A stretch of 64,000 bases of DNA from a virus, in the IMG/VR virus record IMGVR_UViG_3300020455_000892, positions 1-64,000 of that record; one strand, given 5' to 3'. The notes beneath the pieces were generated by a model. The model did not search any database. It worked only from the letters and a program-made list of their open reading frames with translations, and was not told the DNA's origin. Shown piece after piece: positions 2,017 through 22,427 of the stretch (its first letter is position 1; the number at the start of each line of letters is the position of its first letter). Both the position numbers and the translations under genes were made by a program.

Positions 2017-2886
2017 ATGCATATCGTTACGGGTGCGGCTGGATTTGTAGGTAGTAATCTAGTTGCATATTTAAACAAACAAGGACATGATGATGTGTTG
2101 TTAGTGGATAATCTATCTATGGATAAAACAAAAAACATTGCAGGATTAATTTTTGAAGACTTTATTAGTCCCAACGAATTGTTAGATATGCATATAGATA
2201 AAAGTGATACTGTATGGCATATAGGTGCTAACAGTAGCACAAAAGAAACAGATTGGCAAAAAATATACACAAGTAATGTTGTATATACTAGACAATTATT
2301 GGAAAAATGTAACACAATGGTTTTTGCTAGCAGTGCCAGTGTTTATGGTGACAATATAACTACACAAGAGCACCCAGTTAATGAATCTCCTAAAAATTTA
2401 TATGCCAGTAGTAAGTTAATATGTGATAATATTTTTAGAAACACCATTGGCTGTAAAGTACAAAGTTGGAGATTCTTCAATGTGTATGGAAATAGAGAAG
2501 GTCACAAACAAGCTATAGGAATGGGCAGTCCGTATACAAACTTCATAAAGCAAGCAAAAGATACAGGTGTAATTAAGATATTCGAAGGTAGTGATAAAGT
2601 ACAACGTGACTTTATTTGTGTTGATGATGTGGTACATATAATGTATGAAAGTTTAACATACAATGATAGTTTTATTTGTAACTTAGGTACAGGAACAACT
2701 AATACTTTTGAGTATTGGGCAAAACTTATTGCTAGTCATTATAATGCAGTGATCGAATATATTCCTGTGCCTGATGATCTCAAAGGCATTTATCAAATGT
2801 ATACTTGTAGTAACAATGAACAGTTAGAGACACTTATAAATCATAAATTTATAACACCTGATGAATTTGTTGAGGCTAATTTGTGA
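2017..2886 (+). CDS. hldD: ADP-glycero-manno-heptose 6-epimerase-like SDR (HldD family)
   Basis: An extended short-chain dehydrogenase/epimerase of 289 residues. HldD converts ADP-D-glycero-D-manno-heptose to the L-glycero form used in lipopolysaccharide inner core. Seen: the NAD(P)-binding 'TGAAGFVGSN' at 5-14, 'ASSASVYG' at 104-111, the catalytic Tyr129 and Lys133 in 'YASSK', 'RFFNVYGNREGHK' at 152-164, and 'EGSDKVQRDF' further on. All of these match the E. coli HldD pattern rather than a generic UDP-sugar epimerase. The protein is about 20 residues shorter than the bacterial enzyme. It is first in a four-gene operon with overlapping frames, and the next gene encodes the enzyme of the preceding pathway steps. 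Confidence 0.85.
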   Translation: MHIVTGAAGFVGSNLVAYLNKQGHDDVLLVDNLSMDKTKNIAGLIFEDFISPNELLDMHIDKSDTVWHIGANSSTKETDWQKIYTSNVVYTRQLLEKCNTMVFASSASVYGDNITTQEHPVNESPKNLYASSKLICDNIFRNTIGCKVQSWRFFNVYGNREGHKQAIGMGSPYTNFIKQAKDTGVIKIFEGSDKVQRDFICVDDVVHIMYESLTYNDSFICNLGTGTTNTFEYWAKLIASHYNAVIEYIPVPDDLKGIYQMYTCSNNEQLETLINHKFITPDEFVEANL

Positions 2887-4067
2887 TTGTAGTAATTGGT
2901 GATATTATTATAGATGAATATGTTTATGGTACAAGCACACGCCTTAGTCCAGAAGCACCAGTGCCTGTTGTAAAACACCAAAAGACAGAACGTAAATTAG
3001 GTGGAGCAGGAAATGTTTACAATAACATAAAAAGCCTGTTTGAAACTACAAATCTAAGTTATCCAAATGATGTAACACTTATTGGTTATAGAAATGATAC
3101 TACAGATTGGCCCGTAGAACTATTTTGTACACATATGCCACTAAAGCAAAGAATTTATGCTGACAAACACTATATTACTAGAATTGATAGAGAACAAACA
3201 ATAGACAATAGCACATTGTTTGATTATGTAAAAGAACGTGTACATAACTGTACAGTGGTAATAAGCGATTACAACAAAGGTACCATACAAGATCCGCAAC
3301 GTTTAATAAAGATACTCAAAGATAATCACTGTTATGTAATTGTCGACCCTAAACAACATTTAGATTTATATGCAGGTGCTGATGTAATCAAACCCAATAA
3401 AAAAGAATATGAAGAATATAATAATGGTGTTGATACTAATATGGTTGTAACAATGGGTGCAGATGGTTATATGATAAATGATGTACACTATCCAACACAA
3501 CAACAAGATGTATATGATGTTACAGGTGCAGGTGATACATTTTTAGCAGTGATGTCATACTTTTTAGACATGGGTGAAAGTTTAGAGTTTGCCTGTGAGA
3601 TGGCTAACAAAGGTGCTGGTGTAAGTGTACAACACAATGGTGTTTACGTTGTTGCTTGGAAGGATTTGGATCCTCGCCCTACAGTTGTGTTTACAAATGG
3701 ATGTTTTGATTTACTGCACCGAGGACATGTTGAAATGCTAAAAGCAAGTAAAGCACTCGGAGGGCATCTTGTAGTAGGATTAAATACTGATGCTAGCGTT
3801 AAGAGATTAAAAGGCGATACTAGACCAATTAACAACGAAACTGATAGAAAAGTTGTGCTTGAAAGTTTGGATTTTGTTGACGAAGTAATATTATTTGATG
3901 AAGATACTCCACAAAAATTAATAGAAAGAATACGTCCGGATATTATTACAAAAGGTGGAGACTATACTGTAGATACTGTGGTTGGAAATGAGCTTGCAAA
4001 AGTTGTAATAATACCAACAGTAGAAAACCAAAGCACAACAAATACAATCAAAAGGATGGCATTATGA
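2883..4067 (+). CDS. hldE: Bifunctional heptose-7-P kinase / heptose-1-P adenylyltransferase-like (HldE)
   Basis: A two-domain enzyme. The N-terminal PfkB-type sugar kinase (about 1-258) has 'GDIIIDEY' at the start, 'GGAGNV' at 40-45 and the anion-hole/catalytic 'DVTGAGDTF' at 212-220. The C-terminal cytidylyltransferase-fold domain (about 265-394) has 'TNGCFDLLHRGH' with the nucleotide-binding HRGH at 279-282. In HldE these domains phosphorylate heptose-7-phosphate and then adenylylate heptose-1-phosphate. At 394 residues it is clearly shorter than bacterial HldE (about 477), mostly in the kinase half. The start is GTG at 2883, overlapping the hldD stop. Isomerase GmhA and phosphatase GmhB are not in the window, so sedoheptulose-derived substrate would come from the host. 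Confidence 0.85.
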   Translation: MIVVIGDIIIDEYVYGTSTRLSPEAPVPVVKHQKTERKLGGAGNVYNNIKSLFETTNLSYPNDVTLIGYRNDTTDWPVELFCTHMPLKQRIYADKHYITRIDREQTIDNSTLFDYVKERVHNCTVVISDYNKGTIQDPQRLIKILKDNHCYVIVDPKQHLDLYAGADVIKPNKKEYEEYNNGVDTNMVVTMGADGYMINDVHYPTQQQDVYDVTGAGDTFLAVMSYFLDMGESLEFACEMANKGAGVSVQHNGVYVVAWKDLDPRPTVVFTNGCFDLLHRGHVEMLKASKALGGHLVVGLNTDASVKRLKGDTRPINNETDRKVVLESLDFVDEVILFDEDTPQKLIERIRPDIITKGGDYTVDTVVGNELAKVVIIPTVENQSTTNTIKRMAL

Positions 4068-4432
4068 CACGATTAAAAGGTGAACAACAGAAAGGCTGGG
4101 GTAAAGAACTTATATTTGCAACTACCGACAAGTATTGTGGTAAACTAATGTTCTTCGACAAGAAAGGTGCAAAATTTAGTATGCACTTTCATAAAGAAAA
4201 AGATGAAAGTTGGTATGTTTTAAACGGTAGTTTTACCTTACACACACTAGATACAAAAACAGCAGATATGGAAACACATATTCTCACAAAAGGAGAAACT
4301 TGGCGTAATACCCCTTTATTACCTCATCAGCTTATAGCTATGGAAGATAACAGTATTATAATTGAAGTAAGCACACCAGATAGTGTGGAAGACAATTATC
4401 GTATTTTCAAAGGAGATAGTCAAAGTGAGTAA
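4064..4432 (+). CDS. Cupin-fold protein, sugar-isomerase-like
   Basis: A single-domain cupin of 122 residues. The first cupin motif is 'MHFHKEKDESWYVLNG' (about 41-56), which supplies two His and a Glu as likely metal ligands. The second is 'LLPHQLIAME' (about 86-95). Such small cupins occur as phosphomannose isomerase-like or sugar ketoisomerase-like enzymes in nucleotide-sugar clusters. The ATG overlaps the stop of the HldE-like gene as ATGA, so it belongs to the same operon and probably the same pathway. The substrate cannot be told from the sequence. Confidence 0.75.
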   Translation: MTRLKGEQQKGWGKELIFATTDKYCGKLMFFDKKGAKFSMHFHKEKDESWYVLNGSFTLHTLDTKTADMETHILTKGETWRNTPLLPHQLIAMEDNSIIIEVSTPDSVEDNYRIFKGDSQSE

Positions 4433-5180
4433 TCTTTGGGTATTCGGTGATAGTTTTGTAAGTGATAAAAATCATTGGTATTATTACAATGAACGAGGCG
4501 GCGAATGGAAATGTCCTGATTGGCATTGGCCTAGACAACTTTGTACTAAACTAGGCACTGAATATGTAGCAGGTGCTAGTTTGCCAGGAGTAAGTAATGA
4601 GTGGATTGGATACCAAATAAGTCAATATCTAAACAAAAACAAATTTAGAAAAGATGATTACATTGTAGTGGTAAGCACAAGTATTCACAGAAGATGGCTA
4701 CTCAAAGAGCCTAGTTTAGGAAATTTGTATGTAAACAATTTAGATAAGTTATTACCTAAAAGAACTTTCAAAGCAGTAGAATTGTATCAAGAAGAATTTA
4801 CTGAGCAACATGAAAAGTGTAGTGAGATTTACTATGAGTGGTTTCTAACATGGGTTAGAGAAATTTTAAAACCTTACAAATTTTGTTTACTACCTGGATT
4901 TGATAGCACTAGGTTACATCATGTACCCAATGACTGGGGTATGGTGCAAGCTGAAGAAGCAGAATTTAAGAACCGTGCTGATGATAAATGGATGCAAGAA
5001 AAAATATGGAACGGATCAGATAAAAGATTAGGACATTTTAGTAGATGCAATCATGACATATTATCAGATAAAATAACAAAATACTTTAGAACAGGTGAAC
5101 TGGTTAACTTTCAAACAGATTTTAAACAGTCACTTTTTACTTGTGAGCAAGATTTAATAGACTACAAAATAGAATTATAA
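4425..5180 (+). CDS. SGNH/GDSL-type hydrolase-like protein
   Basis: A protein of 251 residues from the GTG at 4425; AGGAG at 4410-4414 supports this start over an upstream ATG at 4383. The N-terminus 'LWVFGDSFVSD' carries the GDS block with the putative nucleophilic Ser. 'GHFSRCNHDILSDKI' near the C-terminus could supply the His of an SGNH triad. Members of this fold act as esterases or acetyltransferase partners on glycans. It is last in the hldD-hldE-cupin operon and overlaps the cupin stop by eight bases. Its end meets the oppositely directed Fe-S gene, overlapping by 19 bases. The fold is moderately supported; the activity is inferred. Confidence 0.6.
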   Translation: MSNLWVFGDSFVSDKNHWYYYNERGGEWKCPDWHWPRQLCTKLGTEYVAGASLPGVSNEWIGYQISQYLNKNKFRKDDYIVVVSTSIHRRWLLKEPSLGNLYVNNLDKLLPKRTFKAVELYQEEFTEQHEKCSEIYYEWFLTWVREILKPYKFCLLPGFDSTRLHHVPNDWGMVQAEEAEFKNRADDKWMQEKIWNGSDKRLGHFSRCNHDILSDKITKYFRTGELVNFQTDFKQSLFTCEQDLIDYKIEL

Positions 5181-6013
5181 GGAAACTTTCCTTCATATTT
5201 GCTACACCTAGGTTGTGCAGTACATTCTCTACAATGTGGTAATCTAATGTTCTCCCCATTCTTTGTTGTATTGTTTCCGTCATATGCATAACCATTTGCG
5301 TCCCATTGCATGTTGTTTACTTTGTGCATATCACCTACAGTGGTAACACTGTCAACAACTTTTTGATCAACTTCAGGATGAACATTTTTGTGCCAATAAC
5401 TAATTACACTTGGTATCTTTTTGCTATCGTATTTGCCTTTTGATGTTGTTCCAAAAAATATAAAATTTTCACAAGCACCTCCATCTAGCCATGCTTTGTC
5501 ATTCTTTTCGTTATAGTGTATTGCTTGAGCTGGGCAAGCGTTAATACAATCATAACAGCCAGTACATTTTTTCCACATGTTGTGTTGAATTTTTTTACTT
5601 TTATTAGGTATGTTAATAATTTCTGTTTTAAATCCTACCATTGCAAAATGACAATCAAAACCAAATTTATAACTGTATACTAATGTATTTCTTGCTCTTA
5701 CTCCTAGTCCACTTAGTATAGCCGCTTCTTTATAATTGGTATACATAGGATACCAACCAAATATTTTACTTTGTTTAATTGTATCGAGTATTTCCTTGTA
5801 AAAACTATAGTCCCAACTTTCTCCAAATTTACACATAACAATTCCGTGTGTTATGTCAGGAAAATGAATACCATTTGTAAAATCTCTACCAAATACATGG
5901 TACTTGGCTTTTACAGGAGACATACTGGCTTGAAAAGTATCTTCGCGTGACAAGTATGCCATATCCCATGTATCATCAAATAAACTTCGAAACTCATCGA
6001 AATCAACTGACAT
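5162..6013 (-). CDS. 4Fe-4S ferredoxin-type reductase, QueG-like
   Basis: A protein of 283 residues. A classical cluster motif 'CTGCYDCINACP' at about 150-161 is followed by a second cysteine group 'CRECTAQPRC' near the C-terminus. This places it with 4Fe-4S proteins such as epoxyqueuosine reductase (QueG) and reductive-dehalogenase-like enzymes. The N-terminal 140 residues look like the alpha/beta domain found in that group. No other queuosine genes are visible, so tRNA or DNA deazaguanine chemistry is not supported by context. It is the last gene of the operon with methyltransferase, carbamoyltransferase and GT9 genes, overlapping the methyltransferase by 11 bases. It may instead reduce a group on the product of that cluster. 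Confidence 0.6.
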   Translation of the reverse strand: MSVDFDEFRSLFDDTWDMAYLSREDTFQASMSPVKAKYHVFGRDFTNGIHFPDITHGIVMCKFGESWDYSFYKEILDTIKQSKIFGWYPMYTNYKEAAILSGLGVRARNTLVYSYKFGFDCHFAMVGFKTEIINIPNKSKKIQHNMWKKCTGCYDCINACPAQAIHYNEKNDKAWLDGGACENFIFFGTTSKGKYDSKKIPSVISYWHKNVHPEVDQKVVDSVTTVGDMHKVNNMQWDANGYAYDGNNTTKNGENIRLPHCRECTAQPRCSKYEGKFPYNSIL

Positions 6014-6668
6014 CTTTAGCTATCTCAATGTAGTAAACAAAGTCTGCATGTGTAACACTTTTACTGACATTTGTAATTTTTAAATTATTTTTATGTATCA
6101 TATCTGAAAATGTTTCTGGTGTACTACCTGTAATGTTTTCCATTAACATTATTTTACCATCTTCTGTCAGATACTCATTTACATTATCAAAAAAGTTTCG
6201 GTGAATGTTCCAATCTAAATCTCTCATCTTTCTTGGTTCGTGTTCTTTTACTGTAAGGTCATCTCTATAGTCCGGAACAGTAAAATTAAAATGAGGAGGA
6301 TTTGCTATGATAAGATCAAATTTTTGTTTTGGAATATTTTTAAAATTATCTGACAGATAAAATTCGCAGTCTAAGTTATTAACTTGTAGGCTGTTTAATA
6401 TTACTGACTGTGCATGTTCACTTATATCACTGAAACTTATTTGTTTTGTAAGTTTAGAATGTAGTGCTGAAAACCCAAAATATCCAGGTCCACAACACCA
6501 TTCTAATGCATTTTCAAATTGTCGACCTTGAGCAAAATGAAGAAAGCAACTAATAGCATCTTTTACAGTTAATGCACCATATCCGTCAGTCTCTTGATTA
6601 GTGATTACAGTATAGTTGCCGACTTTTATACTATTCGATAAAGTTTCCAAAATATAATAACTTTCCAA
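6003..6668 (-). CDS. Class I SAM-dependent methyltransferase (NPPH motif)
   Basis: A Rossmann-fold methyltransferase of 221 residues. The SAM-binding motif I is 'EWCCGPGYFGFSAL' (about 56-69), and motif IV 'IIANPPHFNF' (about 120-129) is of the NPP(Y/H) kind used by enzymes that methylate amide or amino nitrogens, such as PrmC, RsmC-like or N6-adenine enzymes. The start lies 38 bases inside the 3' end of the carbamoyltransferase gene, and its own 3' end overlaps the Fe-S gene, so it is tightly coupled. Its target is unknown; from context a sugar or small-molecule target is as likely as a nucleic acid or protein. Confidence 0.7.
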   Translation of the reverse strand: MESYYILETLSNSIKVGNYTVITNQETDGYGALTVKDAISCFLHFAQGRQFENALEWCCGPGYFGFSALHSKLTKQISFSDISEHAQSVILNSLQVNNLDCEFYLSDNFKNIPKQKFDLIIANPPHFNFTVPDYRDDLTVKEHEPRKMRDLDWNIHRNFFDNVNEYLTEDGKIMLMENITGSTPETFSDMIHKNNLKITNVSKSVTHADFVYYIEIAKDVS

Positions 6669-8466
6669 ATTCAGGTAGATATAGATATTCTATATCACTT
6701 TGTTGCAAAGTATTAAATGCATCTTGTAAGGTTTCTACCAACGGTTCACCTCCTAAATTAAAACTTGTATTAAACACAATAGGAACACCTGTTTGTTTTT
6801 TAAATTCTTTAATAAAGTTATAATAGTTAGGATTTTCTTCCTCAGTAACAGTCTGGATTCTACAAGTCCCATCTACATGAATGATACAAGGTATTTTTTC
6901 AGCAACTCCTTCTTGACAGTTAACTGCATACATCATATGTGGTGTATCTTCCATGCCTCGCAAGTCAAACCATTCGTGTACATCTTCTGCTAGAATAGTG
7001 CCTGCAAAAGGTCTAAAATATTCTCTATTTTTAACTGTGTTAACATGATCCTTTCCTTTTGGATCTCTCGGATCATAAAGTATACTTCTATTACCTAATG
7101 CTCTTGGACCACTTTCACTGCGTCCTTGAAACATAGCTACAATATTTTTTTCAGTAATAAGTTTTACTACATCACTTTGACTTGCATCAGACATTTGACA
7201 ATCAAATTCAGCAACAAGTTCATCTATATCACTCTGTTCGTAACTGTATTCAGGTCCTAGATAAATGTCACGTCCTCTACGCATTTCGTCTCTGCTTGCT
7301 TCATGATATCCCCAAAGGGCCGCTCCAATAGCAGTACCAGCATCACTACTAATTGGCTCAACATAAAGGTTTATTCCTTCTTCTTTAACCTTTTCTAAGA
7401 AGCTATAATTTGCTACACAATTCAAAGCATAACCTCCCGTAAGAACAACATTTTTCTTATCAGCTAGTTTACTTGCAGTAAGAATGTAATCTAATGCTTT
7501 TACTTGTGTTGCTTGTTGTACTGCATAAGCTAAATCTCTTCGACTAGTTTCTTTAGATACGTCATGATCCGGATTCATCCAAGGTACATTTAGTTCTGGA
7601 TACAACTGCATATTTACTTGAGCACTATTAGGATATGTTGGTATGATAACATTTGCATTACTAAGAGAAAAAGGAGTATGTGGATCAATTAAAGGCGGAA
7701 TAGCTGGATTTTCTTTTCCATAAGGAAATAAGCCCATTGTTTTGCCTGCTTCGATAGCTTGAAATCCACAGTATTGTGTTACTGCTTCATAACATTTTAC
7801 TAGACCAGCTCTATTGGAAATTAAACAAGTGTAATTATTATCTAGTTCTCCAAACTCTTCACCGCTTCTATTAAAAACCAATTGAGTAGTTGCTGGATCA
7901 CGTGTGCCAAAATGTTTAAATTTTGAATTAAATTCAGCAGGATATTCACAATCAATTATTGATTCAACTTCCCAAATTGCATGAGGAGTATCTTCTGAGA
8001 AAGTATCATTTTTCCAAGAGGCTGAAAGTACAGAGCCTGCTCCATCAATTACAACTGCAACTGCATTATCAAATCCACTTCTATAAAAAGCACATGCGGC
8101 ATGTACTTTGTGATGTTGTCTGGACAAATCAGTAAACTGTGGATGATCCCACAAGTTTACTTTTCTATCAATTAGTCCCAGCTTCCTACATAGACCCGAA
8201 TATATGTTATCGCCTGTATAGTCAACTATCAAGTCAGGTTCAGATTCTAATGTTCTAGTATGTGATAGATAAACATGATCTACTTTGTCTGTGTATTTTA
8301 ATACTTCAGTAATGCCTGCCATTGGCATTCCGTCATATTTTGTTCTGGTAAGTCTTTCTTCTTCTATATTAAAAACTATCTTTCCGTCTTTAAGTAGACA
8401 TACACTTGAGTTATGTCCTCGGCTTATGCCTAAAATATAGCCAGATTCATATCGTTTTTTATACAT
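6631..8466 (-). CDS. Carbamoyltransferase, NodU/TobZ family
   Basis: A 611-residue member of the NodU/CmcH/TobZ family, which transfers a carbamoyl group from carbamoyl phosphate via carbamoyl-adenylate to a hydroxyl, typically on a sugar. Seen: 'ILGISRGHNSSVCLL' at the start (Kae1-like domain), the metal-binding-type 'HHKVHAACAFYRSGF' (about 117-131), 'VIDGAGS', and C-terminal 'GRSESGPRALGNRSI', 'VKNREYFRPFAGTIL' and 'PIVFNTSFNLGGEP' blocks. Length is typical. A GGAG lies seven bases before the ATG. Directly upstream is a GT9 glycosyltransferase. Phage homologues are known both in glycan-decoration clusters and in cytosine hypermodification; no TET-like or other DNA-modification partner is visible here. 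Confidence 0.9.
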   Translation of the reverse strand: MYKKRYESGYILGISRGHNSSVCLLKDGKIVFNIEEERLTRTKYDGMPMAGITEVLKYTDKVDHVYLSHTRTLESEPDLIVDYTGDNIYSGLCRKLGLIDRKVNLWDHPQFTDLSRQHHKVHAACAFYRSGFDNAVAVVIDGAGSVLSASWKNDTFSEDTPHAIWEVESIIDCEYPAEFNSKFKHFGTRDPATTQLVFNRSGEEFGELDNNYTCLISNRAGLVKCYEAVTQYCGFQAIEAGKTMGLFPYGKENPAIPPLIDPHTPFSLSNANVIIPTYPNSAQVNMQLYPELNVPWMNPDHDVSKETSRRDLAYAVQQATQVKALDYILTASKLADKKNVVLTGGYALNCVANYSFLEKVKEEGINLYVEPISSDAGTAIGAALWGYHEASRDEMRRGRDIYLGPEYSYEQSDIDELVAEFDCQMSDASQSDVVKLITEKNIVAMFQGRSESGPRALGNRSILYDPRDPKGKDHVNTVKNREYFRPFAGTILAEDVHEWFDLRGMEDTPHMMYAVNCQEGVAEKIPCIIHVDGTCRIQTVTEEENPNYYNFIKEFKKQTGVPIVFNTSFNLGGEPLVETLQDAFNTLQQSDIEYLYLPEFGKLLYFGNFIE

Positions 8467-8476
8467 ATTTTCTCCG

Positions 8477-9562
8477 TTATCTTTTACGTCTTTTAGATCT
8501 TTTAGAATCGTTGTTTTGTATATTCAAATAATTTTGAAAATTTTGTGTCAATGGCTTTTGATGTACAACTCCGTGTGTAGGACATACATCACCTTGATTA
8601 GGATTTGCCAATGGTAATTGTTGCGGTGCTTTGTTTTTTGGCTTGCCTAACTTTTTAATTACACTACTGATTATTTCATCAAACACATCATCTTCAAAAA
8701 TCATCAAGTCTTCGTTGTCACGTTCTAATGCCCAATCCATTGTAACTCTAAAAGGCATGTACTGTCTTTTTTCTTTACCTGCATCAATTACTGTAAAATC
8801 TTTATTTCCAGGATATGTAATGTTTTCTGGAAAAGTACTTCCTATAACTACTGTGGCTGGTTTTCCTAGTGCATGAGCATAATGTTGTCCCATACTATCA
8901 CATCCAACAAAGTAATCACATGCATTGATAATACCCATCCACTGCAATAAGTTAGTATCATTTGGAATAACTACACTGGCATTTGGTTTCTCAGGTGGAG
9001 GAAGTTGTATTGTACTCATAATAACTACTGCATAATGTTCTGTCAGTTTATCTATAGTTCTATACACATCTCTTAGCTCAAAACTTCTACCACTACTATC
9101 ATATATAAATCTTCCGTCTTGTTTTGCTCCAGAACCAAAAGGTTGAAACACTACAATTTTTTCTTTGCCTGTTTGCATTTTTATTTTGTCACACATAGAA
9201 TGACCATGTATTTGATCTACCTTGTTTATATCTAAGTTAATAGCTTTGCTTTCAGGCATTTCGGTATGATCATTTACAAGCATATCAAATGCTTGTATCA
9301 TATTACAACGTTGATTAAAGTATGCATTAAGTCTATATGGTTCTGGACTTATAAGCTCTGTGTCTCTAATTTTTTCCCACAAACCTTTTGCACCTAAGGG
9401 CCATACGTTGTGTCTAAGATTTTTGTTAACAAGAAACAATTCGTTCCATGCTTCAGCAATAATAACAACATCTTTATCTACATTTTGTTGATACCATTCA
9501 AGTCCAGGCAATGAGCATAACACTCTGCCAGCCCCGCCGTTAATAAAAAAGGATTTTTTCAT
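8477..9562 (-). CDS. GT9-type glycosyltransferase (ADP-heptose transferase-like)
   Basis: A protein of 361 residues with a GT-B look. The N-terminus 'FFINGGAGRVLCSLPGLEWY' has the glycine-rich loop of GT9 enzymes. Later 'VVFQPFGSGAKQDGR' and the donor-site 'ACDYFVGCDSMGQHYAHALG' resemble the ADP-heptose:LPS heptosyltransferase signature. The last 45 residues are basic and low-complexity (ending in a K/R-rich tail), outside the usual domain. Linkage to HldD/HldE-like genes supports heptose as the donor sugar, but this is inference. First gene of the leftward operon, with its own sigma70-like promoter. Confidence 0.75.
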   Translation of the reverse strand: MKKSFFINGGAGRVLCSLPGLEWYQQNVDKDVVIIAEAWNELFLVNKNLRHNVWPLGAKGLWEKIRDTELISPEPYRLNAYFNQRCNMIQAFDMLVNDHTEMPESKAINLDINKVDQIHGHSMCDKIKMQTGKEKIVVFQPFGSGAKQDGRFIYDSSGRSFELRDVYRTIDKLTEHYAVVIMSTIQLPPPEKPNASVVIPNDTNLLQWMGIINACDYFVGCDSMGQHYAHALGKPATVVIGSTFPENITYPGNKDFTVIDAGKEKRQYMPFRVTMDWALERDNEDLMIFEDDVFDEIISSVIKKLGKPKNKAPQQLPLANPNQGDVCPTHGVVHQKPLTQNFQNYLNIQNNDSKRSKRRKR

Positions 9563-9663: not shown

Positions 9664-10773
9664 TTAGCAACAACACCAGCTTATACAGACCATGCCCATT
9701 CGACCACTGTCTCCGCCACATGCATTACAGCCACCAAAAGTACTTCCTGCCGCTCCGCCTGAACCTGGAATTTGTCTATGGTTACATCCTGTATAGTTAC
9801 ATCCAAAACAACTGCTACCACCCTGCCATGAAAATTTACAAGTACAATCCTCATAACCATAAACTGGTGCTGGACATGTCTCACTGCCATTGTTAAGATC
9901 TGATCCGATTTTCATATAAGGATACATACTTGGAATACCAAAACAACATGCATTTCTGTCGGTTGCTATACAAGTGTAACACCAGGATCTTTGATTTGAA
10001 TATACAAAATCAATTTCTAACATATCACTACCACTATCCCAACAAAAATTCCATCCGCTACACTGATATGCACCGCACAGGTTGTTTGAAGCACCTGATG
10101 GTATTTCAGCTGATTGGTTTGTGTTTCCTACAAATTTATTTCCTGAATGGCTTCTTGTTGACGTCATCCAGTCTGTAAAACATGCTAGTCCACTTAGTGT
10201 ACACAAGAATAATCCTGGTCCACAAATACAAGTATTGCCTCCACAATATCCGTTTGTAGTTTGATATGCATAACAACAATAAGCACAACCAACATCCATA
10301 TAGTAGGATTCACCTGCAGTTACATCCATTTCAATTACAGTATATGCTCCACTAGGTCCAAAAGGTGCACCGCCACAACAACAGTTTGATCCTGTTCCGC
10401 CGCCGGATCCCCAACTTTGAAAAGTTGCTCTTGTCACTCCAGATGGCACTGTCCAAGTACATGTTGTACCACATCTGAAATAACCACTTGTATCACACGC
10501 TTTAAAACCATTAGGTTTTGCGGCTGTTAAATTTCCAAGAACTGCCGCCCATTCTGTTTTTAATCTAGCTGTAGAAGCCGTGCCACCGCCGCCACCTGAT
10601 TCAGGAGCCGCACAACTAATTCCAGTAATTCTATCTGAAGAACTTGTACCTAATGCACCATTTGCGGCTGTATAGACATTTGCGGAACCAGCGGCTCCAT
10701 CTTTAAAATCTCTCCACATATCGCGGAGTCTTTGGTTTTCTTTCATTGCGGCATATAAAAGTACATCACTCAT
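9664..10773 (-). CDS. Cysteine- and glycine-rich adhesin-like protein, copy 1
   Basis: A 369-residue protein with 34 cysteines (about 9%), including CCC at 127-129 and a terminal 'WCCC'. The N-terminus is a short amphipathic segment 'LLYAAMKENQRLRDMW'. A beta motif 'CTWTVPSGVTRATFQSWGSG' near 101-120 matches the entry strand of the glycine-rich adhesin at 21168-22427, and both end with a similar D/H-S/G-R-x-G-M/A-V strand. It therefore looks like a polyglycine-type adhesin in which many positions are Cys. It is paralogous to 11502-12512. Cysteines in a cytoplasmically assembled virion protein could bind metal or form disulfides after lysis; neither is shown. Confidence 0.7.
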   Translation of the reverse strand: MSDVLLYAAMKENQRLRDMWRDFKDGAAGSANVYTAANGALGTSSSDRITGISCAAPESGGGGGTASTARLKTEWAAVLGNLTAAKPNGFKACDTSGYFRCGTTCTWTVPSGVTRATFQSWGSGGGTGSNCCCGGAPFGPSGAYTVIEMDVTAGESYYMDVGCAYCCYAYQTTNGYCGGNTCICGPGLFLCTLSGLACFTDWMTSTRSHSGNKFVGNTNQSAEIPSGASNNLCGAYQCSGWNFCWDSGSDMLEIDFVYSNQRSWCYTCIATDRNACCFGIPSMYPYMKIGSDLNNGSETCPAPVYGYEDCTCKFSWQGGSSCFGCNYTGCNHRQIPGSGGAAGSTFGGCNACGGDSGRMGMVCISWCCC

Positions 10774-10782
10774 TAGCTACTC

Positions 10783-11466
10783 CTATACATCTTCATTTTC
10801 GGATACCTTAGAAGGTAGTGATTCAAATAACGTACCTAACTCTGCTGGTATCTGAGGCATTGAACCTTCTGAGATTGTTATAAATTTCCAAGGGTAACAA
10901 TTGGCATATGATGCAATATATGTATCTATATCACTGATAAATGTGTCAATAGCAGATTGTTGATCTGTAGTAAAAGCATATTGGTTATTGTATCTTTCAA
11001 CATATGCTTTTCTAGCTTTTGCTTTTACTTCAGGAGCAGTGTCTGTTGTCTTGTAAATAGGTGTTAATTTAATTTTTGAGCTATCTGATGGGTCAACAAT
11101 ACAATCCATCCAATCTCTTAATCTAGGATTGGTAATTTTTTTGTATACACTGTCATCAAAAGCGTTTGTTTCATCTTCAAATGTATGTGTAAAGTCATCA
11201 GCAATAGGTTGTGACCACATACCAACTTCTGGTTGTGCATCACAATCAACTTCAATTACACTAATACCTGATTGAGTTAACATTGCAAGTTCATCACTAT
11301 CTGGCTCATCAAATGAAATATAGTTTATTTGTTCTTCGTTGTTTGATCCTAACCATACTTTATCAGGTCCAGTATATGTGTAGGTAGCTGTATTGGAATC
11401 GTCATGCTTATCGATCCACAGCTCGTCTGGAACATCAATTGTAAATTCTTTTGTAATATCTGCCAT
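10783..11466 (-). CDS. Hypothetical acidic structural protein between the Cys-rich pair
   Basis: A protein of 227 residues, very acidic, rich in Asp, Thr and aromatic residues. It starts 'MADITKEFTIDVPDELW', a beta-rich opening, and the C-terminal half looks helical ('KAKARKAYVERYNNQYAF', 'SAIDTFISDIDTYIAS'). It has only three cysteines, in contrast to both neighbours. It sits nine bases downstream-to-upstream between the two cysteine-rich paralogues and has its own GATAAATA late promoter. It may be a partner or assembly factor for one of them. No family was recognised. Confidence 0.6.
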   Translation of the reverse strand: MADITKEFTIDVPDELWIDKHDDSNTATYTYTGPDKVWLGSNNEEQINYISFDEPDSDELAMLTQSGISVIEVDCDAQPEVGMWSQPIADDFTHTFEDETNAFDDSVYKKITNPRLRDWMDCIVDPSDSSKIKLTPIYKTTDTAPEVKAKARKAYVERYNNQYAFTTDQQSAIDTFISDIDTYIASYANCYPWKFITISEGSMPQIPAELGTLFESLPSKVSENEDV

Positions 11467-11485
11467 ATTTTTTTACCTTCGTAAT

Positions 11486-11493
11486 TATTTATC
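11486..11493 (-). promoter_or_regulatory. Late promoter GATAAATA for the 10783-11466 gene
   Basis: Minus-strand GATAAATA, 19 bases before the ATG at 11466, with AAGG between as a possible Shine-Dalgarno. Confidence 0.55.
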
Positions 11494-11501
11494 TTTTCTC
11501 A

Positions 11502-12512
11502 TTAAGCTGTCCACCAAGTTAATCGTACCATTCCCGGTCTACCAGAATCTCCACAATTACTATTTCCACCGCCCATAACGTGTGTTGCTGTACCACCTGC
11601 TCCATATACTTGTCTATACCCAGCGGATGCACTACAACAGCTACCACCACAACATGTACCACTACTATAACTAAAGCAACATTGACATGTGTTTGCCGCT
11701 ACTGTATGATCCACATCAATTACCGGAGCATGAAACTTGTATCCATAATGGTTTGTATCAAAACATGCTTTACCGTACAAGCTAGGAAGTCCGCAAGTAC
11801 AATCACCCATGTTGTAATTTGTAAATGAAATATCAGTATCTTTATGGAAATCAATTTCTCCACAAGTTGCACAACTACTAGTAAAACAATAATCATGTCC
11901 ACCATTACATAGACACGCACCTGAATCTCTATTTCCATCTGGAGATCTATATCTACAATATGTTTCACCATGCAACATTTCAGCAGATCTACCCATGCCA
12001 CTACATGCACCCATAGCTATTAAACATTGTGTTCCATTTGTGTTAGTTACATAACTCTGACACATAGTAGCAGGACCAGTACCTCTACTTGACCAACAAC
12101 AATATGTACATGCCGCACACATAAGCCAACTTTCACCTGCTGTAACTGGAAGAATACTTACTGCATATGCACCAGTTGGTCCATAATGACTTCCTCCACA
12201 ACAACAACCTGTGGCTGTGTACGCACCTGCACCCCATACTTGAAACATAGCTCTATTAACACCAGCTGGTACTGTCCAAGTACAAGTCGCTCCGCAACTA
12301 TTTTGTGTATTTGAACCCCATGCCGCACAAGTATAAATTTCTCTAGTAGCATCATAATTGCTATTATCATAAGGAAGTAAATTCCAGTTAGTTGGATCCC
12401 AGGGCGTATTGGTTAATTTTGCTTCTATTTTTTTAAACTCTTCTTCATCGATAAGGAGCCTGAGAGTTTCATTCTCTCTCATAAGTGCGTTATATAATAG
12501 TGCGTTTGCCAT
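11502..12512 (-). CDS. Cysteine- and glycine-rich adhesin-like protein, copy 2
   Basis: A 336-residue paralogue of the protein at 9664-10773, with 30 cysteines (about 9%). Shared landmarks: N-terminal 'LLYNALMRENETLRLL', the strand 'CTWTVPAGVNRAMFQVWG', a following C-C-C-G-G, 'TAGESW' before a Cys cluster, and the closing 'CGDSGRPGMVRLTW'. Between them lie many CC and CxC pairs. The two copies differ strongly in the middle, as expected of receptor-binding surfaces. It is expressed from a CATAAATA late promoter that overlaps the end of the upstream 1552-residue gene. Role as host-recognition adhesin is inferred from the shared strand with polyglycine adhesins. Confidence 0.7.
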   Translation of the reverse strand: MANALLYNALMRENETLRLLIDEEEFKKIEAKLTNTPWDPTNWNLLPYDNSNYDATREIYTCAAWGSNTQNSCGATCTWTVPAGVNRAMFQVWGAGAYTATGCCCGGSHYGPTGAYAVSILPVTAGESWLMCAACTYCCWSSRGTGPATMCQSYVTNTNGTQCLIAMGACSGMGRSAEMLHGETYCRYRSPDGNRDSGACLCNGGHDYCFTSSCATCGEIDFHKDTDISFTNYNMGDCTCGLPSLYGKACFDTNHYGYKFHAPVIDVDHTVAANTCQCCFSYSSGTCCGGSCCSASAGYRQVYGAGGTATHVMGGGNSNCGDSGRPGMVRLTWWTA

Positions 12513-12534: not shown

Positions 12535-12542
12535 TATTTATG
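12535..12542 (-). promoter_or_regulatory. Late promoter CATAAATA for Cys-rich copy 2
   Basis: Minus-strand CATAAATA overlapping the stop of the upstream gene, 22 bases before the ATG at 12512; AGGA follows before the start codon. Confidence 0.6.
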
Positions 12543-15500
12543 TCACTGTTATAGTGTCAACTTCACCATTTGTTTTATATGTAAGAGCTACAGTTTCTGT
12601 AGTAGCACCTACTGCTTGTGTAAAACTAGTTATTCTTTTGTATCTACCAAAGTCTATGTCGTCTATTGGAGCTCTACCTTGATACTCATATGTTACTGAA
12701 CTTACTGCAACACCAGTACTAGTTGCCGCTGTTACAAAACCGTCACTATCTTCAGTAGTTCCTGAGCTAGCATAAGGTGTAGCCGCTCCGCCACCAGATG
12801 AATCTCCCCATTCGACTGCATTTGCACTAGCATTAACTACTAGAACCTGTCCAGCATTTCCAATAGCCAATCTCTGTGGGCCTGTAGCATCTCTGTATAA
12901 CACATCACCTGCCGTAGACAGTAGTGAATTAGGTATAGCATTGTTATCAACATAACCTTTAACAGCCTGTTCTGTTGGAACAGCCGTGTTACTGTTTCCA
13001 CTTAGTGTGTTATCTGCACTAAATTCGTTAATACTTTCACCTAACTGAGCACCAATACTACCCAATCTCAAACTTGTCAAACCACTTAGGTCAAATGCAC
13101 TAGCATCCAATGTAGCTCTACCAGTTGACTGATCAACTCTAAAGTAGTTACCAACTCTAAAGTTACCATCTTGGTCTGTACTTACATAGTAAACACGACC
13201 TGGGTATGTCTCTGTAACTTCATTACCTTGTGAAGACGCTTGTGTTGGTTCACCTGGGTAGTTTGTAGATGCTCTACCACCAGTACCAATACTTAAGAAG
13301 TCATGTCCAGTAAGTCTAACTTGACTGTACTTGTATCTCAATCTAAACATTTGTCCATAATATGTATCGCTAGTATCAGGTTTTTCTGTTGCCAATGTTA
13401 CTGTACATGTTCCAAGTATAGTTGGATCACTGCTTGCAGTGTATCCTGAAACTGTAGTTACAATGTAACTAACTGTGTCTAAACCTGTGTTAGGTGTCCT
13501 AGTAATATCTACATTGTCTGTAGGATTGTATACTGGTCCTGTTACGAATTCAATACTTGCACCTGGTCTAGGTTCTTCACTCAATCCGGCTAGTACCATA
13601 CTAAATCCATGCTGTCCTTTGGCACTGTCAGCGGCTATAGTTGTAGCAGTTTGACCATCTTGTGCAGTAATTGTCGAAGCATCAGCTATGCTATCTGTTC
13701 TGTAAATTCCTGTAAATCTTTCCCAATGTGTATCTGCTGTACTGTGTTGTGTTGTTGTATTGTAAATAATAGTCGGTTTATCACTTGAACTTGTTTGAAT
13801 ATTATTACTAATTGGTGTACTCACATAATTATGTGTGGTTGTATTACTACTGATTCCAACATTAACTGTTATTGTAGTTGCTGTTGTGTCTATAACTTTT
13901 ACAAATACGCTTGTTTTTGCAGGATCACTACTTCTTGGGTAATCATGATTTGAACCATCTCCGTCTTGGGCACAAGTAAATCTAATACTGTCTTGCAATA
14001 TTTCTACATTGTCGCCAGGCTGAAGACTGTGCGTTCCGATATCCATTAGCAAAATACCAGTTGTTGGTGTGTATGTTGCGTTTGTAGATGTATAGCCAGT
14101 TCCGCCACCCATTCCAGAATGATTTACACAAACAGAGTATAGTTTTGCGGCTGTAGCACCTACTACCCAAACTTCTCTGCTAGTTGCGGCGTTAAATCCT
14201 GAATTATATGCGGCTAAGTCTGCCTGTTTAATTCCATCTAAGTAATATTCTACAGCATTACCTGTAAGCCCTGTTACAGCATCTTTAGCAGGATTATATT
14301 CTGTTCCACCATTATGTGTTCCGTCTTGTGTTTCGCTGAAATACAAAGGATGTCCATTATTGCTTAAATCATTTTGTTCAAAGATATACATTCTATGTTT
14401 TGTATCCATTTTGTGAGAACCTAGTTCTTCACCGTCGAATACATATCTGTTGCCTGATCCACTGTCTCTTACAGCCACTTTAATTGTTTTGCCTGTATAA
14501 CCTTTTATAGTACCATTTACAACCAATCTGTGATTAGCCGCTGGCTGAATATTGGTTTGAATATTAGCAACTGTTGATTTCATTTCTTTGTAATTAATTA
14601 TATCGCCACTAGTAAATGCTGTACCTGTTAATACTCTTTCAGCATTACCGCCACTTACATATGCACTAAAAGCCGTTCCGTCTAGTGTCGTTGTTAAGCC
14701 TGCATCTGTGTAAAGTTCGACTGTATTGGCTGTAATATTGTTTGCATAATAACTTTGACCATTCAATTGAGTCATACCAACAATACCAGAAATGTTCTGT
14801 ACTACACTACCATTGGAATATCCATGTCCTGTTATTGTTACAACAACTGGATTGGCTCTTGTAGCATCTGAGATTGTTTCATTTACTACACCCCAGCCGT
14901 TTATGCTTCGTGTGTCAAAGTAATTTGATAAATCTGGATTTGTACATATTCTAAATTGTGTTGCACTTACTACATCAGCATACCAAGTTCTATTGTACAT
15001 AGTAGCAGTACCATGACTTCCAAATGTCTTAGCCCAATCATTAGGAACAGTATCTTTGAACGCAACCATATCGCCTTCTGCAAGTCCATGTGGGTTAGCT
15101 GTTGTGATTGTACATTGTTGTTCGTTGGACACTGCGGTAATTGCAACATTGTTTGTGGTCGTACCACCATATGTTAGTGTATCGCCAACTGTAAATCCTT
15201 CTGATGTACCAAGTGTACTTGCTTGATAGGTAATTGTGTCACCGTAGACATATCCATCTGCGGCAACTTCGTTTGTATCAAAGCCAGCACTTAACGCACC
15301 GTAAGTACCATAACTGTTGTTTCCGTTCAATGCACGAATCTTACCACCGCCAGTTGATACATATCCATAATCATTATAGTAAGTAAAGCATGAAACAATT
15401 TCACTCAATCCATTGTTGCTTACCCAAAAGCCAATGCCGCCGTCATGTACTTGGGTGTATGTGTGAAACACCATACTGCCCGCTGTGCCTGCGGCAACTA

Positions 15501-17196
15501 CTGATCCATCAACAATAGCACCAACGCCTCCTGTTGAAAACGCACTTGATTCTTTGATGTAAGGTGATTTAAGTATTGTTGCTCCTGGTTTTAATCTTAA
15601 GTAACAACCTTTTACTGTACTAGTTGTTGGATCTCCAGGAGTACCCATTACAAATCCTGTTAGACCTTTCATTAAAATACCTTCAATCATTACACCACTA
15701 TCTAAGAAGAACATGGTTTCCTCATTGTTTGGTATTCCGTTATCCCCATTTCCAGCCGCTGGTTGAATAATACAGTTACGCTGTCCGTCACCAACAATAG
15801 TAACATCTGCTGGTACTGTGATTGGTAAAACCTCGCTGTATGTTCCGTCTTTGATAAAGATTGTAGCTGGTGTTCTGTTAGCTGTATCTGCCGCAATATA
15901 TTGACACGCATATTTTACACTTGCAAAAGCATAGTCAATTGCCGAACCGTGATTCACATCATCAGCACTACTAGTTGCATCTTCTGCTACATAGAAAATT
16001 TTGTCATTTGCACCTGCAAATTGCCAACTATATGTTGCTCCGTCTGGTGTTTGTAGATACTTACCAGCATTACCTGCTGTATTTGGAAGCACATAACTAG
16101 CACCTGCAACAAACTCTTCCCAATAATTATTTGTGTTCAAATCTATAAAAAAGTCTGCGCCAGCTGTATGATCTATTAAACAAATATATGTACTAACACT
16201 ACTCTTAACAATATCATCTTTAAGATAATTTGTAGCTGTGGTCCAATTACCCATGTAACGTATACCACTATTAAATTTCTGCCATTTTCCTGAAGATAAA
16301 TCTGTAGCAAATACACCTGATGTATGTCCTTCTAATACAATATATGTATTACCACCGTAGGTCACAACATCATTGATAGCATATGAAGTTGCACTTGCCC
16401 AATTTCCTCTACTATTAACTCCAGTTGAGAACGCTTCCCATTCAGTTCCATTTGTGTCTGGTTGTTTGTTTACGTTATCAATTTTTGCTCTATAAACATT
16501 ACCGCCGTATCGTACAGTTTCACCGATGTAGTAGCTTGTACTGTTTGACCAACTACCTTTAAAGCTATTACCATTAATAAAGTTTTCAAAGTATGCGGGA
16601 TCTGTTGGAAGATTTGCTGAACTGTTTTGTGTACAACGATATAAATTAGCACCATAAGCTACAATATCTCCTGGTGTGTATTGTGTCGCGGAATTGTAAA
16701 CACCTTGTGGGCTAACACCTTCTACAAACTTATCCCAATAACCTATATCAGTTGGAAGATTTCCTGTACTATCTTGTTTTGCAATATAAACCTGCGACCC
16801 GTATTTTACAAGGTCATTTTTTTGATATCCAGTGGAACCGACATAGTCGCCTTCCCATTGAATACCATCTGCGAATTGACTCCAGTATATTGCATTTGGA
16901 GGGTTATTGCCTTGTGTGTCAAGTATACATATGTAAACTTTACCACCATAAGTAACACCATCTCCTACTCTATACTGTGTTGCACTGTCATACACTTGTC
17001 TAAACTTAAAGCCTTCGACCATCAAAGTCCAATAAGTTTGATTGCTTGGTAGATTTCCTGTTGTTTTTGTTACATTTGCATATACATAAACATTACCACC
17101 GTACTTGACGATGTCATTTAATTCATATTCAGTGGCGGCGTCATATTCGCCTGCAAAATGAAATCTAAGTTTTCCGAGGTCTATAATTGTTGCCAT
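12538..17196 (-). CDS. Giant virion protein with carbohydrate-binding-like repeats and beta-helix
   Basis: A 1552-residue protein. Residues about 10-363 form seven tandem units of about 45-55 residues with the pattern W/Y-x-x-x-T-x-Y-x-x-x-D-x-V-x-Y-G-G-x-x-Y, then N-x-P and W-x-x-F-x-x-G, as in chitin-binding type (CBM5/12) modules. A right-handed beta-helix or pectate-lyase-like region follows from about residue 390, with 'TIFIKDGTYSEVLPITVPADVT'-like turns (quoted in part) and 'GVMIEGILMKG'. Later regions are beta-rich, ending in a fibre-like stretch. It resembles large cyanophage structural proteins. Likely a baseplate-attached fibre or side protein that binds surface polysaccharide; no catalytic residues were identified. 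Confidence 0.8.
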   Translation of the reverse strand: MATIIDLGKLRFHFAGEYDAATEYELNDIVKYGGNVYVYANVTKTTGNLPSNQTYWTLMVEGFKFRQVYDSATQYRVGDGVTYGGKVYICILDTQGNNPPNAIYWSQFADGIQWEGDYVGSTGYQKNDLVKYGSQVYIAKQDSTGNLPTDIGYWDKFVEGVSPQGVYNSATQYTPGDIVAYGANLYRCTQNSSANLPTDPAYFENFINGNSFKGSWSNSTSYYIGETVRYGGNVYRAKIDNVNKQPDTNGTEWEAFSTGVNSRGNWASATSYAINDVVTYGGNTYIVLEGHTSGVFATDLSSGKWQKFNSGIRYMGNWTTATNYLKDDIVKSSVSTYICLIDHTAGADFFIDLNTNNYWEEFVAGASYVLPNTAGNAGKYLQTPDGATYSWQFAGANDKIFYVAEDATSSADDVNHGSAIDYAFASVKYACQYIAADTANRTPATIFIKDGTYSEVLPITVPADVTIVGDGQRNCIIQPAAGNGDNGIPNNEETMFFLDSGVMIEGILMKGLTGFVMGTPGDPTTSTVKGCYLRLKPGATILKSPYIKESSAFSTGGVGAIVDGSVVAAGTAGSMVFHTYTQVHDGGIGFWVSNNGLSEIVSCFTYYNDYGYVSTGGGKIRALNGNNSYGTYGALSAGFDTNEVAADGYVYGDTITYQASTLGTSEGFTVGDTLTYGGTTTNNVAITAVSNEQQCTITTANPHGLAEGDMVAFKDTVPNDWAKTFGSHGTATMYNRTWYADVVSATQFRICTNPDLSNYFDTRSINGWGVVNETISDATRANPVVVTITGHGYSNGSVVQNISGIVGMTQLNGQSYYANNITANTVELYTDAGLTTTLDGTAFSAYVSGGNAERVLTGTAFTSGDIINYKEMKSTVANIQTNIQPAANHRLVVNGTIKGYTGKTIKVAVRDSGSGNRYVFDGEELGSHKMDTKHRMYIFEQNDLSNNGHPLYFSETQDGTHNGGTEYNPAKDAVTGLTGNAVEYYLDGIKQADLAAYNSGFNAATSREVWVVGATAAKLYSVCVNHSGMGGGTGYTSTNATYTPTTGILLMDIGTHSLQPGDNVEILQDSIRFTCAQDGDGSNHDYPRSSDPAKTSVFVKVIDTTATTITVNVGISSNTTTHNYVSTPISNNIQTSSSDKPTIIYNTTTQHSTADTHWERFTGIYRTDSIADASTITAQDGQTATTIAADSAKGQHGFSMVLAGLSEEPRPGASIEFVTGPVYNPTDNVDITRTPNTGLDTVSYIVTTVSGYTASSDPTILGTCTVTLATEKPDTSDTYYGQMFRLRYKYSQVRLTGHDFLSIGTGGRASTNYPGEPTQASSQGNEVTETYPGRVYYVSTDQDGNFRVGNYFRVDQSTGRATLDASAFDLSGLTSLRLGSIGAQLGESINEFSADNTLSGNSNTAVPTEQAVKGYVDNNAIPNSLLSTAGDVLYRDATGPQRLAIGNAGQVLVVNASANAVEWGDSSGGGAATPYASSGTTEDSDGFVTAATSTGVAVSSVTYEYQGRAPIDDIDFGRYKRITSFTQAVGATTETVALTYKTNGEVDTITVT
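16105..17166 (-). repeat. Seven tandem carbohydrate-binding-like modules
   Basis: Coding repeats at the N-terminus of the 1552-residue protein. Each unit has a leading aromatic (Tyr or Trp), a Y-G-G or Y-G-x turn and a closing W/F-x-x-F. The fifth to seventh units start G-S/N-W, and the seventh has lost the Y-G-G turn. Units are diverged at base level, so expansion is not recent. Confidence 0.75.
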
Positions 17197-21167: not shown

Positions 21168-22427
21168 TTATCCCGCAACTGTGAACTCGTAGAAATAAGT
21201 ATCACTTGTTAGCCCTTGTGCATCAACATCGAAGAACCAGCTTTTGTAATCATTATTTCCAAAATATCCAATTTGACTGCTTACGCCGCCTGAAATAGTA
21301 AATGTTTTACTAGGACTAAACGGAGCTCCTACTGTAATAGTATCGCCCGCTGTCTTATCATCTAATGCATTTCGAAGATTTACTGCTAGTGTAGATTGTG
21401 ATTGTCCACCTATTATTTGTTGTCTAATCCATATCTGTGTATTACTTGTTGTACTAGTTGATGCAGTTCTCCATTGTCCATGTGTTATAGAAGATGCAGA
21501 ATAATATTCACCTCCTGTATAATTTTGATATGAATGATTAAAAGGATTGGTTACTCCCCATACTATTCTAACTGCTCCGTGTGCTCCGTTACGCATACCT
21601 TCGTTGTGGTATCCACCTGCGGCTCCACCTCCGTAAAGTCCACCAGTGCCTGCGGGCCATGCCGCGGCATCACCGCCTCCAGCACCACCTGTAGCCGGAG
21701 GATATGGATAAGTGCCGTATTCACCACCTTGTCCATCATTTGCATTATATCCAGTAGGACCGTCGAGACCAACACCTCCGCCACCTCCAGCATAAGAGCC
21801 ACCAGTAGGTCCACCAGCACCTCCGCCACCTCCGTATCCTATAGATCCTCCAGATGTTGTCCATGCTATCTGTCCTGTATCACCACCAGGTCCGCCTGCT
21901 CCAGTGTAGCCTCCTGCTCCACCTCCGCCTCCTGGACTATGATATTGACCTCCTGTACTATCTCCACCATCGCCGCCGTTACCACCGCCTAGTCCGTTAA
22001 ACTCACCGCCAGTCCCTCCTGCTTTTAATCCGCTTTCATTTAAAGCTCTACTTGCTCCATTTCCTCCACCATATCCGGCAACAGTTTGTTCATTGATGAA
22101 AGAACTGTCGGCGCCACTAGCACCACCAGATCCACTGCCAACTACTACTGTATAGCTTTGTCCAGGAGTTACTGCTATATTATTTCTATAAGCAAGACCG
22201 CCTCCGCCTCCGCCTCCAGCGTAACCATATGTTATACTACCCGGTGCAGATCCTCCTCGTCCGCCGGCTCCAACAGCCACAACGTGTACTGTGGTTACAC
22301 CAGCTGGTGCTGTCCATGAATCTATTCCAGGAGTTGTAAATATTTCGTCACTTCCACCAGCGGCTCCAGATGATCCACCTATACCGCCGAAAGCTCTAAC
22401 ACTTGTTGCTGAACAAATTATAGGCAT
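21168..22427 (-). CDS. Polyglycine adhesin-like protein
   Basis: A protein of 419 residues. After a short leader, an entry strand 'SWTAPAGVTTVHVVAVGAGG' (about 36-55) opens a region of about 230 residues made of G-rich tracts (GGGGGGG, GGGGGAGG, GGAGGGD), reminiscent of the polyglycine type II helix sandwiches of phage S16-type gp38 adhesins. It closes with 'HGAVRIVWGV'. The C-terminal 115 residues are a separate beta domain ending 'YFYEFTVAG'. Such proteins are distal receptor-binding tips of long tail fibres. The upstream and downstream genes are fibres that could carry it. Confidence 0.75.
   Translation of the reverse strand: MPIICSATSVRAFGGIGGSSGAAGGSDEIFTTPGIDSWTAPAGVTTVHVVAVGAGGRGGSAPGSITYGYAGGGGGGGLAYRNNIAVTPGQSYTVVVGSGSGGASGADSSFINEQTVAGYGGGNGASRALNESGLKAGGTGGEFNGLGGGNGGDGGDSTGGQYHSPGGGGGAGGYTGAGGPGGDTGQIAWTTSGGSIGYGGGGGAGGPTGGSYAGGGGGVGLDGPTGYNANDGQGGEYGTYPYPPATGGAGGGDAAAWPAGTGGLYGGGAAGGYHNEGMRNGAHGAVRIVWGVTNPFNHSYQNYTGGEYYSASSITHGQWRTASTSTTSNTQIWIRQQIIGGQSQSTLAVNLRNALDDKTAGDTITVGAPFSPSKTFTISGGVSSQIGYFGNNDYKSWFFDVDAQGLTSDTYFYEFTVAG

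Follow-up and report, generated by a model that had tools for sequence, protein, structure and literature searches.

Cysteine-rich tail-fibre proteins of aquatic phages track a GT9-fold glycosyltransferase gene, which suggests sugars attached to cysteines on host-gripping tips

A 64-kb stretch (the window) of the 82-kb IMG/VR record IMGVR_UViG_3300020455_000892, a marine cyanobacterial virus whose genes resemble those of T4-like cyanomyoviruses in sequence matches, encodes two paralogous proteins with about 9% cysteine, and beside them a GT9 heptosyltransferase-like protein and a NodU-type carbamoyltransferase. The adjacent GT9 gene, which was absent from the options of an earlier sequence-based reading of this DNA (the original prediction), is the best predictor of cysteine-rich fibres. 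We consider it likely that the GT9 enzyme S-glycosylates fibre cysteines, with ADP-heptose as the likely donor and the carbamoyltransferase probably decorating the sugar. In the proposed mechanism, the two proteins would be tail-fibre tip adhesins of the virion whose exposed cysteines act as acceptors for the phage's own glycosyltransferase. HldE- and HldD-like phage enzymes would supply an activated sugar, which is most likely ADP-heptose; the GT9-fold enzyme of the neighbouring gene would link this sugar to the cysteine thiols, the carbamoyltransferase would probably then act on the attached sugar, and the product of the gene between the pair would aid adhesin folding. The genes at the center of this proposal are the following.

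9664..10773, minus strand: cysteine-rich protein 1, 369 aa, 34 Cys (9.2%); phrog_35878, E 3e-43; proposed acceptor
10783..11466, minus strand: middle acidic gene, 227 aa; conserved, in nearly all complete cassettes
11502..12512, minus strand: cysteine-rich protein 2, paralogue of protein 1, 336 aa, 30 Cys (8.9%); phrog_35878, E 3e-41; proposed acceptor
8477..9562, minus strand: GT9 heptosyltransferase-like gene, phrog_8954; proposed S-glycosyltransferase
6631..8466, minus strand: NodU/Nol-type carbamoyltransferase (PF16861, E 1e-60; PF02543, E 2e-24; phrog_1601, E 5e-165); proposed to carbamoylate the sugar
12538..17196, minus strand: long tail fibre with CBM5/12 domains, 0.8% Cys; upstream cassette member; phrog_9851, E 2e-223

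The two cysteine-rich paralogues described in the original prediction are confirmed as open reading frames (ORFs), and their products are homologous (36% over 275 aa, E 1e-34). The window has 33 minus-strand ORFs that are 150 aa or longer, and three of them reach at least 6% cysteine in some 150-aa stretch; the pair peaks at 12-13%, and the third, a ferredoxin-like protein near the carbamoyltransferase (5162-6013, minus strand, with a CTGCYDCINACP motif), has exactly 6%. The fibre proteins neighbouring the pair contain 0.2-0.8%. Relatives, gathered by tblastn and IMG/VR scans, include P-SSM2/P-SSM5, single-cell marine viruses and 43 loci; the IMG/VR loci are fragments, and their genes are ORFs, not curated. 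Across 90 members the family has 21-51 cysteines (median 33), with 36 in each of PSSM2_304 and PSSM2_306 of P-SSM2. The homologues therefore keep the cysteines whose loss the original prediction had named as decisive against it, and this conservation excludes chance as the source of the richness.

The GT9 gene accompanies cysteine-rich proteins in other phages as well. A search of phage records with the GT9 protein (E<1e-4) gave 55 records of ~ten distinct phages, and one example per type was inspected (AG-345-O18, AG-345-P14, Vibrio D505 and SBP1, Aeromonas HJ05, and cyanophages); besides phages with the cysteine cassette, it recovered AG-345-O18, AG-345-P14, Vibrio phages and Aeromonas HJ05. 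In each inspected type, a cysteine-rich or cysteine-enriched tail protein lies beside GT9, even when the tests run showed no homology to the window pair. The counts are 73 and 31 Cys in L056, 26 in 282 aa in L057, 41 in 1756 aa in L058, 41 in 925 aa in L059 and 23 in 559 aa in L060. The Vibrio protein has its cysteines scattered over Ala-rich, probably helical, repeats, and among GT9 neighbours the count rises as high as 148 Cys in 1397 aa. IMG/VR was scanned twice for GT9, which returned 160 loci, 132 of them with enough flank. A protein reaching 6% cysteine in some 150-aa stretch lies no more than 6 kb from GT9 at 121 of these 132 loci, and at 75 of 79 once GT9 is clustered at 80% identity, whereas one of 41 GT9-minus tail-fibre loci has such a protein, on a contig that ends at the fibre (Fisher p 6e-28, uncorrected for relatedness). 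The cysteine proteins at GT9 loci form 24 BLAST clusters, which need not correspond to distinct folds, and have several architectures; the window's family is the largest cluster (38). GT9 patterns of the Vibrio/Aeromonas type matched one viral and one bacterial locus.

A cleaner test comes from a subset of the cysteine-rich fibres, built of 17-residue repeats that follow the pattern NTAIGxxALxxNTTGxx. In GT9-linked repeats (371 units), cysteine occurs at positions 5, 6, 9, 10, 15 and 16 (9-23% each); positions 12-13 have no more than 2.4% and the remaining nine none, while control repeats without GT9 contain 0.24%. From their variability we infer that the six positions are exposed. The Pelagibacter phages HTVC111P and HTVC112P, chosen as controls, proved to carry a GT9-like gene directly after the fibre and 2.35% cysteine at the same repeat positions. 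Theirs is a minimal version of the system (L224:5545-8858 and L227:5509-8657), a cysteine-bearing repeat fibre and then the GT9-like gene; the annotation shows no carbamoyltransferase next to that gene, and HldE has no match. A further 80 IMG/VR loci, an independent set, were gathered by fibre query (starting with the HTVC111P fibre), blind to cysteine and to the glycosyltransferase. All 19 GT9-positive loci in this set have at least 1.5% cysteine in the repeats, and 320 of their 325 cysteines (98%) fall at the six variable positions; of the loci that lack GT9 and extend 2.5 kb or more past the fibre, 1 of 30 reaches that level, and a further 12 cysteine-bearing loci without a visible glycosyltransferase are on contigs that stop no more than 100 bases from the fibre. 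In a tree built from the C-terminal chaperone domain of the repeat fibres (74 rows), the glycosyltransferase label changes at least four times on well-supported branches and ten times on the best tree, the cysteine label changes eight times, and the two labels agree in 72 of the 74 rows.

The arrangement of the cysteines resembles that of surface residues. Where members of the window's family have something other than cysteine at a cysteine column, K, R, Q, N, Y and S are enriched 1.3-2.6 fold, not G/V/L, and glycine is depleted (0.49 fold), which places the cysteines at surface-type positions and contradicts the idea, put forward in the original prediction, that they had replaced glycines of an adhesin. 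The CCC motif reported there is present, but the many CxC pairs are what composition predicts (4 in protein 1 vs 3.7 in shuffled sequences, for CxC and for CxxC alike), and neither spacing is enriched over shuffles in the family. In 51 cysteine-bearing repeat fibres (1434 units), cysteine pairs number 152 within a unit vs 208 expected by shuffles, and 390 in neighbouring units vs 437 expected (standard deviation 18); the exception joins position 10 to position 5 of the following unit, a combination more frequent than expected (z 3.9). The shortage of pairs argues against disulfides and metal clusters in these fibres.

The predicted fold is consistent with a fibre tip. In the AlphaFold2 model of protein 1 (90 homologues; pLDDT 77.8, pTM 0.79), a linker of low confidence joins an N-terminal helix to a beta-rich tip domain of TNF/glycine-rich fold. 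For this model Foldseek gave as best PDB matches the Bxb1 tail tip, the fibre of cyanophage Pam3 and the ALK/LTK glycine-rich domains, all distant (E ~1e-4, TM 0.2-0.34). A Pfam search with the window's cysteine-rich proteins and the middle protein gave no match; the cysteine-rich homologue L109 matches Gly_rich_2 (PF21722) at 34.3 bits, over a cut-off of 24.3. Together with an hhalign match of the entry strands to the window's polyglycine adhesin at 21168-22427 (E 2.5e-5), these results bear out the adhesin-like scaffold, and the likeness to that adhesin, of the original prediction. Its suggestion that the acidic gene is a partner also holds up: Phage_tail_APC (PF16778) matches 2 of 18 members of the middle-gene family (best E 5e-11; the window member is unmatched), and the gene probably encodes a fibre assembly chaperone. 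The Pam3 fibre gp24 combines an N-terminal helix with TNF-like and glycine-rich parts that bind the receptor, and it has a chaperone, gp25 (PMC9608196), of which the middle gene is plausibly the equivalent given those two matches. Helix, TNF-like and glycine-rich tip and chaperone partner are likenesses of the window proteins to Pam3 gp24 and gp25, to S16 gp38-type adhesins and to the ALK/LTK glycine-rich domain. The Pam3 paper does not mention cysteine, whereas the window proteins have 9%, at variable polar positions.

The AlphaFold2 model of the GT9 protein (pLDDT 90.6) has the GT-B heptosyltransferase fold, with WaaC, WaaF, the GT9 structure 3TOV and TibC (4RAP/4RB4) as top Foldseek matches (E ~1e-8). 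Two relatives score above the PF01075 gathering cut-off (L220, 26.2 bits; L058, 24.5 bits), in the C-terminal GT9 signature; PDB sequence searches with the cysteine-protein and GT9 profiles returned nothing useful. Fold and C-terminal signature are shared with the lipopolysaccharide (LPS) heptosyltransferases WaaC and WaaF, but unlike these the phage gene adjoins tail-fibre genes and tracks cysteine-rich fibres. The autotransporter heptosyltransferases TibC and AAH, acting on TibA and AIDA-I, resemble the phage system in that an enzyme of GT9-like fold is paired with a repetitive adhesin, there hyperglycosylated from ADP-heptose (PMC4358343). TibC differs in its Ser acceptor, its four-Cys iron finger, its N-terminal beta-barrel, its dodecameric assembly and its autotransporter substrates, whereas the phage GT9 adjoins fibres and has no cysteine at invariant or nearly invariant columns in alignments of 14 and 90 members. 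Since the conserved iron-finger cysteines are absent, the phage enzyme is not a bacterial autotransporter heptosyltransferase.

ADP-heptose is the likely donor because the nearest folds use it and because HldE/HldD-like genes accompany the cyanophage cassettes. In the window these are the following, together with a cupin gene.

2017..2886, plus strand: HldD-like ADP-glyceromanno-heptose 6-epimerase (TIGR02197, E 1e-65, under the curated cut-off)
2883..4067, plus strand: HldE-like bifunctional heptose-7-P kinase / heptose-1-P adenylyltransferase (NF008454, E 3e-93; TIGR02199, E 5e-51; both under cut-off)
4064..4432, plus strand: WbuC-like cupin of the sugar cluster (TIGR04366, E 4e-7, under cut-off; Cupin_2 at gathering score)

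The HldE and HldD models are the best matches to their window proteins, with every score under the curated NCBIfam cut-offs. An HldE-type adenylyltransferase is present in 7/7 cyanophage-type records with GT9 and in 0/5 Vibrio, Aeromonas and Pelagibacter phages with GT9. Cyanobacterial LPS is described as lacking heptose (PMC4515613), so that cyanophages would have to bring the heptose pathway themselves, and the distribution of HldE is as expected if their hosts have none. Two P-SSM2 annotations near this pathway were re-read: the 'phosphoheptose isomerase' PSSM2_311 (L001:20007-20351) looks like a HAD capsule-type phosphatase (TIGR01689, E 1e-8), and the 'cysteine dioxygenase' PSSM2_312 (L001:20332-20688) looks like a WbuC-like cupin, for which reason a link to cysteine dioxygenase was dropped.

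Dense disulfides, metal loading or thiol attachment, with glycines turned into cysteines, made up the mechanism of the original prediction. That mechanism is probably wrong, and the cysteine counts given above disfavour the first two options. If the cysteines cross-linked the adhesins within or between subunits in oxidising seawater, with the GT9 enzyme doing something else, the ~11 nearly invariant cysteines of the window's family, including CC and CAYCC clusters, would find a ready role, and Agrobacterium phage Milano, likewise unusual in its tail cysteine content, would be the precedent. Milano has 2.1% cysteine in its structural proteins and mapped disulfide bonds in the sheath and baseplate (PMC10811340), whereas here 9% is reached in fibre tips. 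Such cross-linking is unlikely, as it gives no account of unrelated fibre designs that bear cysteines mainly beside GT9, of the avoidance of cysteine pairs in repeat fibres, or of the 31% of cysteines in the window's family that lie in columns where fewer than 20% of members have one. Loading of the tail with Fe, Cu or Zn, of the 'Ferrojan horse' type, draws on high cysteine density only, and we regard it as very improbable: CxC and CxxC are not in excess, the cysteines are scattered singly on the repeats, and the constant neighbours are sugar genes, not metal genes.

The other two alternatives keep the modifying enzymes and change the acceptor or the catalyst. Among fold relatives that modify proteins the closest, TibC, acts on Ser and not on Thr (PMC4358343), and the phage GT9 could in the same manner glycosylate fibre Ser/Thr/Asn, the role of the cysteines being separate but linked; some GT9 loci do have cysteine-free Gly/Ser/Thr-rich fibres (L187). 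Against this, which we judge quite unlikely, cysteine covaries with the glycosyltransferase and fills variable positions. The carbamoyltransferase, found in 72 of 79 non-redundant GT9 loci, is a relative of HypF, which carbamoylates a cysteine, and might S-carbamoylate the fibre cysteines directly, leaving GT9 secondary. The loci of the Vibrio, Aeromonas and Pelagibacter phages, like L204, L214 and L217, lack it but have GT9 and cysteine-enriched fibres, and direct S-carbamoylation is accordingly a very poor candidate. Because GT9 is shared by all these loci and the carbamoyltransferase is not, it is GT9 that we propose as the cysteine modifier.

Several observations weigh against S-glycosylation by GT9. 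The window's GT9 protein is a marginal match to PF01075 (20.4 bits, gathering cut-off 22), and the TM-scores of its fold matches are moderate (0.4-0.55). GmhA (TIGR00441) has no match in the 82-kb record or in seven other phages; the host may supply this step. Some of the nearly invariant cysteines of the window's family may be structural. L243 has a cysteine-bearing fibre with no GT9 visible, on a contig that starts inside the fibre. Phylogenetically independent pairs on well-supported branches of the repeat-fibre tree number two that agree and none that disagree, too few for significance. Finally, 11 of the 132 GT9 loci have no cysteine-rich neighbour within 6 kb (L073, L187, L188, L191, L196, L198, L200, L201, L202, L205 and L215); in L073 a cysteine-rich protein is present beyond that distance. 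At L187, L188, L191, L200, L201, L205 and L215, most of which have the carbamoyltransferase, the nearby fibres are Gly/Ser/Thr-rich or ordinary and almost cysteine-free, and at loci of this type the enzyme may use another acceptor, or the fibre may lie elsewhere.

The window pair is part of a Kyanoviridae-type cassette (P-SSM2 PSSM2_304-306, S-SSM7, S-CAM1, S-CAM3 and IMG/VR contigs) found in P-SSM2 and at nearly every IMG/VR locus of adequate length. Its order is fibre, small genes, first cysteine-rich gene, middle gene, second cysteine-rich gene, GT9 and NodU-type carbamoyltransferase, often followed by HldE halves, a HAD phosphatase, a cupin and an epimerase. Nearly all loci of the family have the cysteine-rich pair and a middle gene of ~220 aa; the Synechococcus phages S-SSM7, S-CAM1, S-CAM3 and Sf-FS3 have three cysteine-rich copies (8-12% Cys) in the same place. 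Single-sequence scans with the first cysteine-rich protein and with the window's S74 fibre returned no locus or one. Between the middle gene and GT9, a gene named prolyl 4-hydroxylase / 2OG-Fe(II) oxygenase in Sf-FS3 and 'minor coat protein' in S-SSM7 lies at L052:6640-7299 and L055:6585-7217, a possible additional fibre modification. At L135:1592-7408, a long CBM5/12 fibre with a cysteine-sprinkled glycine-rich tip fused at its C-terminus adjoins GT9 and replaces the separate cysteine-rich protein.

Heptosylation of adhesins on Ser is already known from TibC (PMC4358343), as is S-glycosylation of small peptides. Glycocins are such peptides, with few S-linked sugars and enzymes of a different family, unlike the phage proteins, which have tens of cysteines on large fibres. 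Their S-glycosyltransferases place sugar on cysteine thiols (PMC12457901, PMC12139839), as proposed here for the phage fibres. In the open-access literature we found no report of cysteine-directed glycosylation of phage fibres or of cysteine-rich proteins in cyanophage virions, these proteins included, and no virion proteomics of P-SSM2; the cyanophage virion proteomes covered there are those of S-SM1, S-PM2 and Syn9 (PMC3037559), none of which is among the cassette carriers found. We see an even chance that this is a dense, dedicated S-heptosylation in which one GT9 family drove convergent cysteine-studded surfaces on many unrelated fibre folds, and cyanophages, their hosts being heptose-less, import the genes for ADP-heptose and carbamoylation. 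As to the purpose of such a coat, we speculate that it most likely tunes host adsorption or protects the fibre from proteases or aggregation.

Our data suggest that sugars are attached to cysteines on the tips with which these viruses grip their hosts. If so, the receptor-binding proteins of phages in natural waters would commonly bear a rare modification, sugar on cysteine. There would also be a source of S-glycosyltransferases and a simple rule for reading genomes, a GT9 gene beside a cysteine-rich fibre. PHROGs files the cysteine-rich proteins (35878, 4205) and GT9 (8954) under unknown function, and the 'LPS clusters' of large cyanophages were once called possible stuffer DNA (PMC3037559); S-glycosylation of fibre tips would explain what the uncharacterised phrog_8954 and the carbamoyltransferase do, and probably the role of part of these clusters as well.

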